In this document: positions 1 to 57,015 of the stretch, in pieces
Layout: each line of letters opens with the position of its first letter
How positions within the stretch are numbered: the first letter of the stretch is position 1
Assembly (NCBI GenBank): GCA_025454525.1
Contig: JALOOG010000002.1
Span: 1-64,000 of the forward strand
DNA length: 64,000 nucleotides
Direction: 5' to 3'
Source: Anaerolineae bacterium
GTDB lineage: Bacteria; Chloroflexota; Anaerolineae; Aggregatilineales; Phototrophicaceae
Position numbers and translations under genes: made by a program
The notes under the pieces: model-generated
Databases searched by the model: none
Told to the model about the DNA's origin: nothing
What the model saw: the letters and a program-made list of their open reading frames with translations, nothing else

Positions 1-82
1 TTGTTGGGTTCTCGCTATCTTGGTGGATATGCTTAAACCTAACTCTGAACCCTTTTTTTTCAAACCGTCTCACCCAAAACTG

Positions 83-127
83 TCCCCCTGTCAGCCATGC
101 ATGGGGAAGGGCTAGGGATGGGGTTTC
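83..127 (+). repeat. Dispersed G-rich repeat, copy A
   Basis: The right half reads ATGGGGAAGGGCTAGGG, then ATGGGGTTT. It resembles copies at 13439-13474 and 55711-55749, which share the pattern ATGGG-GAGGG-TTAGGGTGGGG-TT. Copy A lies between genes. I infer a dispersed intergenic repeat family; no encoded mobility gene is seen. Confidence 0.5.
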
Positions 128-266
128 AAACAGCTCACACCAGATCTTAAAAGCCCACAACAGCCCCTTCTCTCCACCCTTCCTCTGTGTTCTCTGTGTC
201 AAAGCTTTTCTACATCCTCTAGATCAAGCCTTTTACGAGAAAGATGCCCCTTCCTTTCGCGTGTGT

Positions 267-13381: not shown

Positions 13382-13438
13382 CGCCGTTATTCAGTCATCG
13401 CAAAAAAGTGTCCCACCCATGCTACGCACGCCAGTTCG

Positions 13439-13474
13439 CTCCCGATACATGGGTGAGGGTTAGGGTGGGGTTGG
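13439..13474 (+). repeat. Dispersed G-rich repeat, copy B
   Basis: Reads CTCCCGATACATGGGTGAGG followed by GTTAGGGTGGGGTTGG. It shares the ATGGG-GAGGG-TTAGGGTGGGG-TT core with copies at 83-127 and 55711-55749. It lies 20-55 bases before the chosen start of the next gene, in its untranslated leader or in an N-terminal extension of that gene. Confidence 0.5.
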
Positions 13475-13494
13475 ATGCAAGAAACTTTCCTGAG

Positions 13495-14403
13495 ATGACT
13501 TCTATGCGCTTTTTAACGCAACCCAGCACCGTTCAATGGCGCGATCATCAGTGGCAATGGTCGCCTCACCTCAAACAGGGCCTCGTTTTTGCGGTCTTGA
13601 TCGCGATCATCTGGTGGGGATTCGCGCTCTTGTTACGCAGCGCCAACCTACCGATCTTGATCTGGGATGATCAATTGGCCACATTCACCGTAGGCAACTT
13701 GGCTCGCCCTTATGATCAAGCGGGTTTTGTCAATCCGCCATGGACGATGTTTTTTCTGTGGCCGTTTAGCTTACCGCCGTTTGAGATCGCGGTGCTGCTG
13801 CAATTGATCGTCTTGTTTGTTGGGATTATCGGTGTGATCTTCAAGTTTGGTTCACCGCGTTCGGCACGCCTCGCCAGTTTGATCGTGTTAACCTCTCCGT
13901 TTGCCTTGGATAACGCGCTACAACTCAACATCGATTGGATTGTGGTCGTGAGCCTATTGTTGCCACCCGCCTATTGTGCGCCGCTCTTATTGACCAAGCC
14001 GCAAAACGCGATCGGCTATCTGTTAAGTTTTAAGTGGTCAGAGTGGGTGCGTTGGACATGGATCACGTTGGGGTTGATCCTCCTGTCGTTTGTCTTATGG
14101 GGCAATTGGCCGCTAGAGTGGTTAGAAAACTCTAACCAGAAATTGGTCGTTTGGCAGATCAATATCGCGCCGAATGCGTTTTTAGGGTATCCTCTGGCCG
14201 TAATCTTAGGGGTGATCGTCTTATTCTTTGCCTTGCGACGGCGCGATCCGGTGTTGAGTATCTTAGCGGGTATCTGTTTTGTGCCATATCTTGCCTCTTA
14301 TAGCGCGATTTTGCCGTTTGCGCTGATCACGGTACGCCTACCCGCATTAGCTGCCGTGATCAGCGTCACAATCTGGTTTGTCGTGTTGGGACTTGTGTTA
14401 TAA
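13495..14403 (+). CDS. Polytopic membrane protein, possibly glycosyltransferase-like
   Basis: About 302 residues with roughly eight hydrophobic segments. An early loop holds WDDQLATFTVGNLARPYDQ and NPPWTMFFLWPF, which resembles the first extracytoplasmic loop of lipid-linked-sugar glycosyltransferases (GT87-like), but the protein is short for that group and I cannot prove it. The frame is open further upstream to 13408, through repeat copy B; the ATGs at 13495 or 13504 are preferred because the upstream part is repeat sequence. It lies between ftsA and ftsZ. Confidence 0.55.
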   Translation: MTSMRFLTQPSTVQWRDHQWQWSPHLKQGLVFAVLIAIIWWGFALLLRSANLPILIWDDQLATFTVGNLARPYDQAGFVNPPWTMFFLWPFSLPPFEIAVLLQLIVLFVGIIGVIFKFGSPRSARLASLIVLTSPFALDNALQLNIDWIVVVSLLLPPAYCAPLLLTKPQNAIGYLLSFKWSEWVRWTWITLGLILLSFVLWGNWPLEWLENSNQKLVVWQINIAPNAFLGYPLAVILGVIVLFFALRRRDPVLSILAGICFVPYLASYSAILPFALITVRLPALAAVISVTIWFVVLGLVL

Positions 14404-44056: not shown

Positions 44057-45724
44057 ATGCAAAGAAAATTTTTGGTATTTGTCTTATTGACGCTGATCGG
44101 CTCTGTGTTTCTAGCCGCTTGTGCGACCGGAGAAGAACCGACAGCTACGCCACGTCCCACCAACACCGCGACCACCGTTCCTACAGAAGAAGCCACGGCT
44201 GAAGCTTCTGTGGCAACGGAAGAAGCGACGATGGAAATGACCGTGGAAGCGGAAATGACCATGGAAGCGACGATGGAAGCCACCATGGAAATGACCGAAG
44301 AAGCCGCTGCCCGCACTGCTGAACCGGCCGTTGCTGCCACCGAAGAAGCCACCATGGAAATGACCGAAGAAGCCACTATGGAAGCGGTCATGACTGAAGA
44401 AGCCACCATGGAAGCGACGATGGAAGCCACTATGGAAATGACTATGGAAGCGACGATGGAAGCCACCATGGAAATGACCATGGAAGCGACGATGGAAGCC
44501 ACCATGGAAATGACCGAAGAAGCCACTATGGAAGCGGTCATGACTGAAGAAGCGACCATGGAAGCCACCCCTGATATGGCGATGACTCCAGAAGCCGCTA
44601 CGACCGAAGAAGCCACACCTGACATGGTGATGACTCCAGAGGCTGCTGCGACGGAAGAAACCGTCAACTTGGCCGGCACGATCGAATCGGTCTGCTTGAT
44701 CACCGACGTTGGTAGCATTGACGACGGCACCTTCAACCAACTCGCTTATAACGGGATGGTGCGTGCCGCGGAAGACTTCAACCTCGAAGACAAATACATC
44801 GAAACCCAAAACCAAGCGGATTACACCAACAACATCCAAACCTGCATCGATGAAGGCTACGACGCGATCATCACCGTCGGCTTCTTGATCACCGATGCGA
44901 CCTTAGAAGCCGCCCAAAATAACCCCAGCGTCTACTTCATCGGCGTGGATCAAGGGTATGCGGATGCACCGGACAACCTCGTCGGTATCCAATTCCGTGA
45001 AGATCAAGCGGGCTTCCTCGCCGGCGTGATGGCCGGGTTGCTCACCGAAAGCAATGTGGTCGGTGGTGTGTACGGGGTCGATATTCCCGCCGTGATCAAG
45101 TTCCGTAACGGCTTTGAACAAGGCGTGCGTTTCGTGAATCCCGAAGCGCGGATCTTGGGTGTGTACATCGGTAGCTTTGTCGCTTCAGCAGAAGGCGCGG
45201 ACGCAGCCGATAACTTCATCGGCGAAGGCGCGGACGTGATCTTCGGCGCGGGCGGTCAAACCGGATCCGGCGCGATCTTACGTGCGGCCGAACGCGGTGT
45301 GAAAGTGATCGGCGTGGATCAAGACGAATTTTTCACCACCTTCGGGCGTGGTGCGACCCCCGGCGCGGAAAACTTAGTGACCAGCGCGATCAAACGGGTG
45401 GACGAAGGTATCTATCAAATGTTGAACGCGCTAAGCGTGGGTGAATACGGTTGGCCGGTAGACGGCGACTACATCATGGACGCGGTGGTGGATGGTGTCG
45501 GGTTCGCTCCGGCCAATGCCGCCACGGTGCCGGAAGATGTCACCGCCCGCGTGCAAGAAGTGTTTGAAGCGCTCAAGACCGGTGAACTCACCACGGGTGT
45601 AGACCCGATCAGCGGTGAACTGCTTGAACCGATGGAAGCTCCAGAAGAAGCGGCTACGGAAGAAATGGAAATGACTCCAGAAGCCACCATGGAAGCAACC
45701 CCAGAAGCCACTGCACGTCCCTAA
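44057..45724 (+). CDS. BMP-family substrate-binding lipoprotein with Met/Glu repeat linker
   Basis: A 555-residue lipoprotein. The signal VFVLLTLIGSVFLAAC ends at lipobox Cys22. Residues about 24-205 are a low-complexity linker of EATMEATMEMT-type repeats. The folded domain starts near residue 208 (ESVCLITDVGSIDDGTFNQLAYNGM) and matches the BMP/Med family of ABC transporter binding proteins, which often bind nucleosides: VGFLITDATLEAAQNNP, FREDQAGFLAGVMAGL, GADVIFGAGGQTGSGAI. A short acidic tail with the same repeat style ends it. GAGGAGGAAAT precedes the ATG. No transporter genes adjoin it. Confidence 0.9.
   Translation: MQRKFLVFVLLTLIGSVFLAACATGEEPTATPRPTNTATTVPTEEATAEASVATEEATMEMTVEAEMTMEATMEATMEMTEEAAARTAEPAVAATEEATMEMTEEATMEAVMTEEATMEATMEATMEMTMEATMEATMEMTMEATMEATMEMTEEATMEAVMTEEATMEATPDMAMTPEAATTEEATPDMVMTPEAAATEETVNLAGTIESVCLITDVGSIDDGTFNQLAYNGMVRAAEDFNLEDKYIETQNQADYTNNIQTCIDEGYDAIITVGFLITDATLEAAQNNPSVYFIGVDQGYADAPDNLVGIQFREDQAGFLAGVMAGLLTESNVVGGVYGVDIPAVIKFRNGFEQGVRFVNPEARILGVYIGSFVASAEGADAADNFIGEGADVIFGAGGQTGSGAILRAAERGVKVIGVDQDEFFTTFGRGATPGAENLVTSAIKRVDEGIYQMLNALSVGEYGWPVDGDYIMDAVVDGVGFAPANAATVPEDVTARVQEVFEALKTGELTTGVDPISGELLEPMEAPEEAATEEMEMTPEATMEATPEATARP
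44216..44656 (+). repeat. In-frame tandem repeats in BMP linker
   Basis: The 12-residue unit MEATMEATMEMT occurs four times (residues 69-80, 118-129, 130-141, 142-153); the last three are contiguous 36-bp units at 44408-44515. An 18-residue block, TEEATMEAVMTEEATMEA, occurs twice (103-120 and 153-170). The bases are nearly identical between units, which indicates recent duplication or slippage. Confidence 0.9.
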
Positions 45725-54307: not shown

Positions 54308-54509
54308 GACTCTCTCCGTGAGTATGCTGGCTTACTTGGTTAATCTGACTAAAATCAGTGTTAGAAACGATTATAGGGGATTCACTACAGGGGTGTCGTG
54401 GTTTAAATTTCGCTAAATTATCCCTTACTTTACTGGTCAAAATCACCAAAGCCCCGTTTTTATTTGTTAAAAATGACCATAAACCCTCGTGATTTGTGGA
54501 CAATGGCCC

Positions 54510-54515
54510 TATAAT
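54510..54515 (+). promoter_or_regulatory. -10 box placed for leaderless transcription
   Basis: TATAAT ends 7 bases before the ATG at 54523. Transcription starting at usual distance would begin at or next to the ATG. No ribosome site is seen before that ATG, and no good -35 is present. Confidence 0.35.
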
Positions 54516-54522
54516 CCGCCCC

Positions 54523-57015
54523 ATGAACACATCACCCTACCCCATCCGTTTGATCTTGGGATCACTTTTGTTGATCGCGCTCCTACTGCTGTTGGGCTTA
54601 TTCAGCGCCCCACATGGACTCGATCGCACCCTCTTAAGCGGTGATCGCCCGATCCGTGCTGATCAATGGGCGTGGTTCAGGGTGGATGGGGCCGATTTTC
54701 GCGATAGCGATGTTCACGATCAAATCGATCGGGTGATGTTTCGCGGTTATATCCGCGTCGAGTCCGATCAATGGCGCGTAAGTCATACCGGCCGCGTCCA
54801 ACTCGCAATTGATGATCAGATCGTCTTACAGATCACCGAAACGCGCCCGATCACCGAAACCGTGTTGACTATTCCCAGCAATCGCCCATTTGTCCAAGTG
54901 CAACTCACCTATTTCCATCGTCCGATCACCTATGCGGCCGGTGATCCGATCCTGTTACAGGTTGAAGAACTCACCCCGATCGGGATCTGGCAACCGATCC
55001 CCACCCATCGTCTATCTAACACGCCGCCGACCGATCCGCCGCGTGAAGCGCTGATCTATTGGCTAACCCGCGTGATCTTGTTGAGTTTAGCGATCGGGAT
55101 CGGGGTGCAAATTGTACGCTATTTACGCCGTGAACCCGTTTTGATCGCGGTGATCGTGTTGGCATTGATCTTACGGTTGATCGTCTTGTCCGATCGCGCC
55201 GCGAATGATCCCTTTTTCGCCTATCTGCAACCCGGATCAGACAATTACGTCCTCATGGCCCGTGAGACCTTGATCGGGGACTCGCACTTGGCCGGTGCGT
55301 TTTATTCCCCCGGTAACACGCTCTGGTTAGTCGTGTTGACGACGATCGTCGGCGCGCCGTTGATGCAGCTTTATCTGGTGAACGCGATTTTAGGCGCATT
55401 CAGCATCAGCGCGATCGTCATGGCCACACGGAGTATCGCGGGCCATCGTGCCGGAATAGGGGCGGGTGTGATCGCGGCGATCTTCCCACCGTTGATCTTT
55501 TATCACACCACCCTACAACTTGAGGCTGTGCTATCGATCCTATTGCCCTTTGCGCTCTGGTTTGGCATCAAATCTCTCTCGCATCTTGGAGATCGCGACT
55601 CCGCAATCGCAAGAAACTCCCTCCCCGATGTTGGAGATCGGGACTCCGCAATCGCAAGAAAGCCCCTCCCCCATGTTGGAGATCAGAACTTCGCAATCGC
55701 AAGAAAGTCCCTCCCCCATGTATGGGGGAGGGATTTAGGGTGGGGGTTTGGACTCCTCATCGGACTCCTCACCCTTACCCGCCTCACCCACGCCTTGATC
55801 GGACTCGCCTTCACCCTCGCACTGTTAGCGATCCCACTCACCCCCCGTCAACGTCTCACCGTCACCTTGATCGCCGCCTTGAGCGCGTTGATCGTGATAT
55901 TCCCACAAACCCTCGCTAATCTTTCGGTTGGACAACGCGATCTGGTGAATGCCAATGGCCCCGATACGCTCTATTGGGCCTTGAATCGGGACGGAAATGG
56001 ATCGGATGTGCGCGGGGAGGCTTGGTATATCGCGCCAATCCGCGGCCAAACTTATAGCCAAGCGTTGATCGCCGATCTCCAGGCCGATCCACTCCGCATG
56101 ATCCAATTGACCTTGCACAAATGGGGCCTCCTCTGGAGCAATACCGATATCGCCAACAATGTCGATTATCATCAACAGGGACTCGCTGCCTCACCGCTGT
56201 TAAATCTCTTGGCCTTACGCGGGTTATGGGGGCCGCAAATGTTGATCTTATTCGGGCTTACCGGACTAGCCTTAATTCGCGATCGCCCTTCACGACATTT
56301 TTTGCTGTGGGTGTGTCTGTTATTGACCCTAAGCACGGTGATCTTTACGGTGTTCGGACGGATGCGGGTGCCGTTTTGGATCCTGTTTGCGATCGGCGCG
56401 GGGATCACCCTAGATCGGATGATCGCACGTCAAACCTTACGCCGCGTGATCCTATTCGGGTTGATCAGCCTCACCTTGATCGGGATCTCACGGTTTGCCA
56501 AAGATCACTTCCCACAAAAAGCCTTTTTCACCGGCCCCACGCCGATCGATCTGCCCTTAGACCAACACTTACGGATCGCCGATCTTGCGCCGTTAGAATC
56601 GCGGTGTGTTCCCGGGGGCTATCTGTTTATCACCGTGACTTGGCAACTCACCGCCCCACCCCCTAACGATCATCGGATTCGCTGGGAACTGCATGATCTG
56701 AATACCACCGTGATCGCACAACGGGAAGTCACCCTCGGCACGATCAGCTATCCGCCGATCGGCACCACCGCTTGGCCGATCCACAGGCACTTACGCGAAT
56801 CGTATTTGATCTTGATTCCGCCCGATGCGCCTCACGATCTCACCTTGATGCTCACCCTAAACGATCGCATCTATCCGATCGCCGATTTAGCGCTCCACCG
56901 TCTTTGTGAGATCCGTCGGTTGGACTTGGCCAGTCGCTTCCGCTTCCATCTGCATGATCGCATCAGCCACCGCTTCGATCGCTTGCGCTTGTTTGCGGAA
57001 AAACGTCGCTTCTGA
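54523..57015 (+). CDS. Large membrane glycosyltransferase-like protein with repeat insertion
   Basis: About 830 residues. An N-terminal membrane helix (near residue 10-30) is followed by an external region (about 40-175), then about ten membrane helices (roughly 180-620) and a C-terminal external beta domain (about 655-800). DRAANDPFFAYLQPGSDNYVLMAR after the second helix fits the first external loop of GT-C (PMT/ArnT-like) glycosyltransferases, with the Asp typical there. Residues near 356-408 are encoded by an inserted repeat. The last 43 residues are read from sequence antisense to the next gene and are basic and unlike the rest. The ATG at 54496 is an alternative. Confidence 0.68.
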   Translation: MNTSPYPIRLILGSLLLIALLLLLGLFSAPHGLDRTLLSGDRPIRADQWAWFRVDGADFRDSDVHDQIDRVMFRGYIRVESDQWRVSHTGRVQLAIDDQIVLQITETRPITETVLTIPSNRPFVQVQLTYFHRPITYAAGDPILLQVEELTPIGIWQPIPTHRLSNTPPTDPPREALIYWLTRVILLSLAIGIGVQIVRYLRREPVLIAVIVLALILRLIVLSDRAANDPFFAYLQPGSDNYVLMARETLIGDSHLAGAFYSPGNTLWLVVLTTIVGAPLMQLYLVNAILGAFSISAIVMATRSIAGHRAGIGAGVIAAIFPPLIFYHTTLQLEAVLSILLPFALWFGIKSLSHLGDRDSAIARNSLPDVGDRDSAIARKPLPHVGDQNFAIARKSLPHVWGRDLGWGFGLLIGLLTLTRLTHALIGLAFTLALLAIPLTPRQRLTVTLIAALSALIVIFPQTLANLSVGQRDLVNANGPDTLYWALNRDGNGSDVRGEAWYIAPIRGQTYSQALIADLQADPLRMIQLTLHKWGLLWSNTDIANNVDYHQQGLAASPLLNLLALRGLWGPQMLILFGLTGLALIRDRPSRHFLLWVCLLLTLSTVIFTVFGRMRVPFWILFAIGAGITLDRMIARQTLRRVILFGLISLTLIGISRFAKDHFPQKAFFTGPTPIDLPLDQHLRIADLAPLESRCVPGGYLFITVTWQLTAPPPNDHRIRWELHDLNTTVIAQREVTLGTISYPPIGTTAWPIHRHLRESYLILIPPDAPHDLTLMLTLNDRIYPIADLALHRLCEIRRLDLASRFRFHLHDRISHRFDRLRLFAEKRRF
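55586..55720 (+). repeat. Three tandem 45-bp units inside a coding region
   Basis: Units at 55586-55630, 55631-55675 and 55676-55720 share TTGGAGATCG-ACTCCGCAATCGCAAGAA and end in CTCCC-C-ATG. Each encodes 15 residues, with the best unit reading GDRDSAIARKPLPHV. Because 45 is divisible by 3, the frame is kept. They fall in a polar loop between membrane helices, where added length does the least harm. Confidence 0.9.
55709..55749 (+). repeat. Dispersed G-rich repeat, copy C, with palindrome
   Basis: CCCTCCCCCAT (55709-55719) and ATGGGGGAGGG (55722-55732) form a perfect 11-bp palindrome around GT. GATTTAGGGTGGGGGTTTGG follows. The core matches copies at 83-127 and 13439-13474. Here it is translated in frame (LPHVWGRDLGWGFG). 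Confidence 0.8.

Follow-up and report, generated by a model that had tools for sequence, protein, structure and literature searches.

We found that a membrane glycosyltransferase-like gene in the 64,000-nucleotide stretch of Anaerolineae DNA analysed here (the window) has very probably acquired, by insertion in frame, a short non-coding palindrome of REP-like type, CCCTCCCC-loop-GGGGAGGG with a G-rich tail behind it, whose left arm would then have been duplicated locally. We favour an insertion because homologues of the host gene are without the block and because the palindrome and its tail are dispersed in the genome.

The host open reading frame (ORF) of 839 codons matches the Pfam family PMT_2 with an E value of 8.7e-5, slightly under the curated cut-off, and contains the whole block (55582-55753), through which the reading frame stays open. 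Tandem Repeats Finder reported an array at 55582-55721 with a period of 45, 3.1 copies and 89% matches; compared with the first unit, the later ones show 84-86% identity, and the unit motif was absent from every dinucleotide shuffle of the window. The final copy leads into the palindrome CCCTCCCCCATGTATGGGGGAGGG, whose single-strand fold has an energy of -13.6 kcal/mol (z -4.65 compared to shuffles), and then into the G-rich tail. The description given in the sequence-only reading of this DNA, of three 45-bp tandem units and a 24-bp palindrome forming one block in an open frame, therefore stands. Elsewhere in the window, at 44251-44659, there are coding-looking tandem arrays with periods of 12, 24, 36 and 48 (GAAGCCACCATG-like) that have no relation to the palindromic repeat.

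Table. Positions in the window of the host gene, the parts of the block and the two further members of the dispersed family.
Feature	Position	Strand	Basis
Host ORF, 839 aa, PMT_2-like (GT-C type) membrane protein	54496..57015	+	ORF list, Pfam, homologues in relatives
45-bp unit 1	55582..55626	+	Tandem Repeats Finder and unit comparison
45-bp unit 2	55627..55671	+	Tandem Repeats Finder and unit comparison
45-bp unit 3, its end being the palindrome left arm	55672..55716	+	Tandem Repeats Finder and unit comparison
24-bp palindrome CCCTCCCC-loop-GGGGAGGG, which forms the core of dispersed copies	55709..55732	none	
G-rich tail GAGGGATTTAGGGTGGGGG, common to dispersed copies	55729..55747	+	
Hydrophobic segment preceding the block, residues 340-364	55513..55587	+	Kyte-Doolittle scan
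Hydrophobic segment following the block, residues 420-452	55753..55851	+	Kyte-Doolittle scan
Full-length (shortened) copy of the 127-bp family	13394..13502	+	Profile model 1-127, 85 bits, E 1.2e-24
Core-only copy of the dispersed family	61..132	+	Profile model 38-104, 34.5 bits, E 5.9e-9

The block corresponds to residues 363-420 of the protein and is flanked on both sides by hydrophobic segments, so that the location proposed for it, a loop between membrane helices, agrees with the Kyte-Doolittle scan. The basic residues of the short loops suggest the cytoplasmic side according to the positive-inside rule, and we infer that the inter-helix loop is cytoplasmic and tolerant of insertion.

Next we compared the host protein with its homologues, which were found in 12 of the 41 genomes searched, the window's own genome included; a search of genome contigs with the host protein found no relative. 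The block is missing in all 11 readable homologues (L032-L042), whose loop is about 48 residues shorter in the protein alignment, and the gain of about 55 residues that had been estimated from the window thus comes down to a net 48 or so. The nearest homologue, L032, is 34% identical over 591 columns (E 3e-89) and shows large gaps across the block site. A twelfth homologue, L052, had been read in the wrong frame and was left out as uninformative. The short loop of the homologues, compared at the protein level, argues for a probable in-frame insertion into the host gene.

With the block as query we found about 45 further sites in the genome, nearly all of them through the palindrome and its tail. 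One of these sites, a copy of 130 bases, was used as the seed for three profile rounds in a search of 791 kb, comprising about 0.73 Mb of sampled stretches and the window. The resulting family numbers 43 copies in the 791 kb, and its 127-bp consensus bears terminal inverted repeats. Extrapolated to 5.24 Mb this amounts to some 280 copies, a rough upper guess, as the sampled contigs were picked for holding copies. The exact word CCATGTATGGG occurred 55 times compared to 3 times for the reversed control. The window block is itself a member of the family (48 bits, E 3e-13 with the 127-bp profile), and its palindrome and tail are 95% identical over 39 bases to the copy on contig C44. The G-rich cores noticed at 83-127 and 13439-13474 as relatives of the block do lie inside family members (E 6e-9 and 1e-24, respectively). 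Both were taken to lie between genes, which for the second agrees with our analysis: an ORF is open over 13408-13502 but has a plausible start downstream, and the copy containing this core is probably intergenic, directly upstream of the gene.

The sequence-only reading had furthermore considered the 45-bp unit and the palindrome core as the repeated parts, and the two fared differently, since copies of the palindrome and its G-rich tail are scattered over the genome whereas the 45-bp unit occurs in the host gene and nowhere else in it. For the palindrome, both checks suggested in that reading, the genome-wide search and the alignment with orthologues, gave the expected outcome. This bears on the proposal that the unit itself is a mobile element which inserts as a ready-made, frame-neutral block, its length of 45 making insertion tolerable. 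The three similar units, a length divisible by 3 and the absence of stops in the frame used would fit such an element, but the unit is confined to this gene, and the units of the other in-frame carriers differ in length (42 and 36 bp) and sequence, the palindrome and tail being the common part. We therefore take the palindrome to be the inserting part and consider a mobile 45-bp unit extremely improbable. That the 45-bp unit as a whole derives from the repeat is weakly supported, its link to the left arm of the palindrome being based mainly on the shared CCCTCCCC-ATG and on a profile score modestly above shuffles. When the unit was compared with the 127-bp form at its 5′ end, pairwise shuffling gave no support (57 of 2000 shuffles scored as high), and we keep this derivation only as a possibility.

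We then inspected 99 distinct copies of the family and found almost all of them to be intergenic or in unsupported frames, with three clear exceptions; several ORFs overlapping other copies were discarded as upstream extensions or unsupported frames. The first exception is the window gene with its 45-bp units. The second is a DUF4058 gene (C44:36785 to about 36990) with 42-bp units, in which the element has the opposite orientation and is read as DPHPNPPPYMGEGTGPRG. Here the element stands where DUF4058 homologues have about 45 conserved residues, so that C44, judged from the alignment, is a replacement and no clean insertion, and the loss of these residues may reflect gene decay. The third is a DUF2142/PMT_2 gene (C160:9143 to about 9230) with a single 36-bp repeat; its segment of about 21 residues is missing in most aligned homologues, L298 and L307 being ambiguous at this place. 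All three carriers are core-only copies that lack the terminal inverted repeats seen in the 127-bp form, and these in-frame copies may therefore have originated differently. Their stem is symmetric, without the TGA of the usual GGGTGAGGG. The in-gene periods of 45, 42 and 36 are each divisible by 3 (a chance of 1/27), and an intergenic array on C119 has periods of 26 and 31, both observations being based on small numbers.

These carriers also help to judge whether the block is an ordinary coding minisatellite expanding in a loop, with the likeness to the family due to convergence of G/C-rich sequence. Tandem repeats are indeed common in loops, and the array minus the palindrome gives no significant match to the family in pairwise shuffling tests. 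Convergence does not, however, fit the match of the palindrome and tail to the family (E 3e-13) or to the C44 copy, the same architecture in two unrelated genes, or locus L331, in a bacterium of the same taxonomic family but a different genus, where a nearly identical palindrome and tail are also in frame. Such a minisatellite is accordingly very improbable, and the insertion of the palindrome remains our reading of the block.

Next, we examined which enzyme could mobilise the element. No RAYT (Y1 tyrosine transposase) gene was found in the genome, a fragmented draft that is 97% complete. The draft is probably a MAG of an Anaerolineae-like bacterium; among named glutamine synthetases the nearest to its own, at 72% identity, comes from a Chloroflexi MAG. 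The sole Y1_Tnp match (L136:1489-3129 on C34, minus strand) occupies the C-terminus of a 546-aa protein with a response-regulator-like start, and is apparently a transposase domain reused in signalling. A RAYT-driven REP reading of the dispersed family was rejected, given that the only Y1 domain sits in this fusion. The tetranucleotide tags GTAG and CGTC are missing from the stem base in both the 127-bp consensus and the window block. Inspection by eye of the flanks of 49 full-length copies revealed no constant target-site duplication, and searches for the terminal inverted repeats themselves recovered no transposon. Repeats of a second type, GCTTTGAACCACAGAGAACACAGAAG, have their outer end in common with the 127-bp element (L202:19812-19912, L215:6389 and L236:2385), and from this common end the intergenic repeats look like mosaics.

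We also analysed the palindrome across the class. A search of 60 relatives did not find the full 127-bp form, and relatives of three genera had the core alone, about 36 bp long. Of 298 genomes from the class, 163 contain the pattern CCCTCCCC-N-GGGGAGGG, with a maximum of 89 per genome, the reversed pattern being mostly found 0-3 times. In several draft genomes the palindromes are near contig ends (loci L351-L363 and others), a position that suggests that assemblies probably break at them and that their counts are too low. We examined 62 loci with 68 palindromes, a non-random sample drawn from listed places. Some of these palindromes are in frame in genes that could be verified, among them carA, the gene of a ResIII helicase and those of two Ser/Thr kinases related to each other. 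In CarA (L343), the kinases (L321 and L322) and the helicase (L380) the palindrome is within the Pfam-aligned domain. The carA palindrome (L343:1556-1577, genome G321) encodes SLPLQGEGQGG in the glutamine amidotransferase domain, and the alignment with E. coli CarA has 7 residues cleanly inserted around this peptide. The kinase has about 15 extra residues in the alignment with PknB; L321 and L322, being of the same genus, likely represent a single event. An ORF for an Eco57I-type DNA methylase (L320, genome G313) has three separate in-frame repeat clusters and a DUF559 domain, and L369 and L374 look like linker insertions, with lower certainty than the other in-gene loci. Of 12 in-gene palindromes, 9 use the phase that reads GGG GAG (GEG); counted by independent genes this is 7 of 10 (p 0.02 compared to an expectation of 1/3, in a post hoc test).

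This preferred coding phase, together with the strong hairpin and a G-run tail whose sequence has quadruplex-like spacing, could also point to a function at the level of the nucleic acid, in which a hairpin or G-quadruplex acting in transcription, mRNA stability or replication happens to fall in coding sequence. The in-gene copies are, however, in unrelated host genes, encode differing peptides and occur in both orientations, homologues manage without the element, and Rfam has no matching family. We consider such a function very improbable as an explanation of the block, for which we retain the insertion of a palindrome. Taken together, the in-gene loci raise the tentative idea, at present rather doubtful, that a class-wide Anaerolineae palindrome might repeatedly enter genes, including those of core enzymes such as CarA, might favour one phase (PxxGEG), and might be a recurrent donor of in-frame loops with arms growing in three-base steps.

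Previous studies have described Rickettsia palindromic elements (RPE) that sit inside ORFs and leave the frame intact (PMC3767692, PMC10969869), as well as intragenic GTAG and CGTC REPs that, single or clustered, encode 20 to 80 residues in many genomes (PMC3733652). Similarly to the palindromic elements of Rickettsia and Wolbachia, we see here a dispersed palindrome in frame in unrelated conserved genes, at sites that are dispensable in homologues: the window, DUF4058 and DUF2142/PMT_2 genes in this genome and carA, the kinases and ResIII elsewhere. The resemblance to RPE suggested from the window is thus supported for the behaviour of the repeat, which recurs genome-wide, is in frame in a gene, is missing in homologues and falls in an inter-helix loop. 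The likeness is one of behaviour: the phylum is a different one, which makes sequence homology to RPE unlikely, the relatives are free-living, the core is shorter, most copies here are intergenic, and the in-frame copies show tandem growth of one arm. The short hairpin repeats, many intergenic and some intragenic, likewise recall REPs (PMC3733652), but the consensus is without the GTAG or CGTC tag and the genome without a RAYT. The 127-bp form recalls MITEs in its terminal inverted repeats, its lack of coding capacity and its many intergenic copies, whereas the in-frame copies are without such repeats and neither a parent transposon nor a target-site duplication was identified. Accordingly we assign the element to none of these, although by analogy it would work like RPEs and intragenic REPs.

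We propose that a short palindrome with its G-rich tail was copied into the membrane glycosyltransferase-like gene, and that the left arm and some neighbouring sequence were then tandemly duplicated in 45-bp steps, probably via replication slippage at the hairpin. In genes, only those copies that keep the frame open in tolerant loops would persist, and the frame-preserving lengths would be what selection has left from many insertions and slippages. Under this hypothesis the element would be selfish or neutral and not useful to the protein.

In the papers examined, in-frame palindromic insertions are described mainly in Rickettsia and in a set of REP-rich bacteria, and among those on repeats in Anaerolineae or Chloroflexi we found no description of the present element. 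The present results place a different palindrome across a class of Chloroflexota, carA included, and call for such loops to be annotated as insertions and not as conserved domains. They open the questions of how frequently selfish repeats turn into protein segments, whether the coding phase is biased, and how such an element spreads without a recognised transposase.
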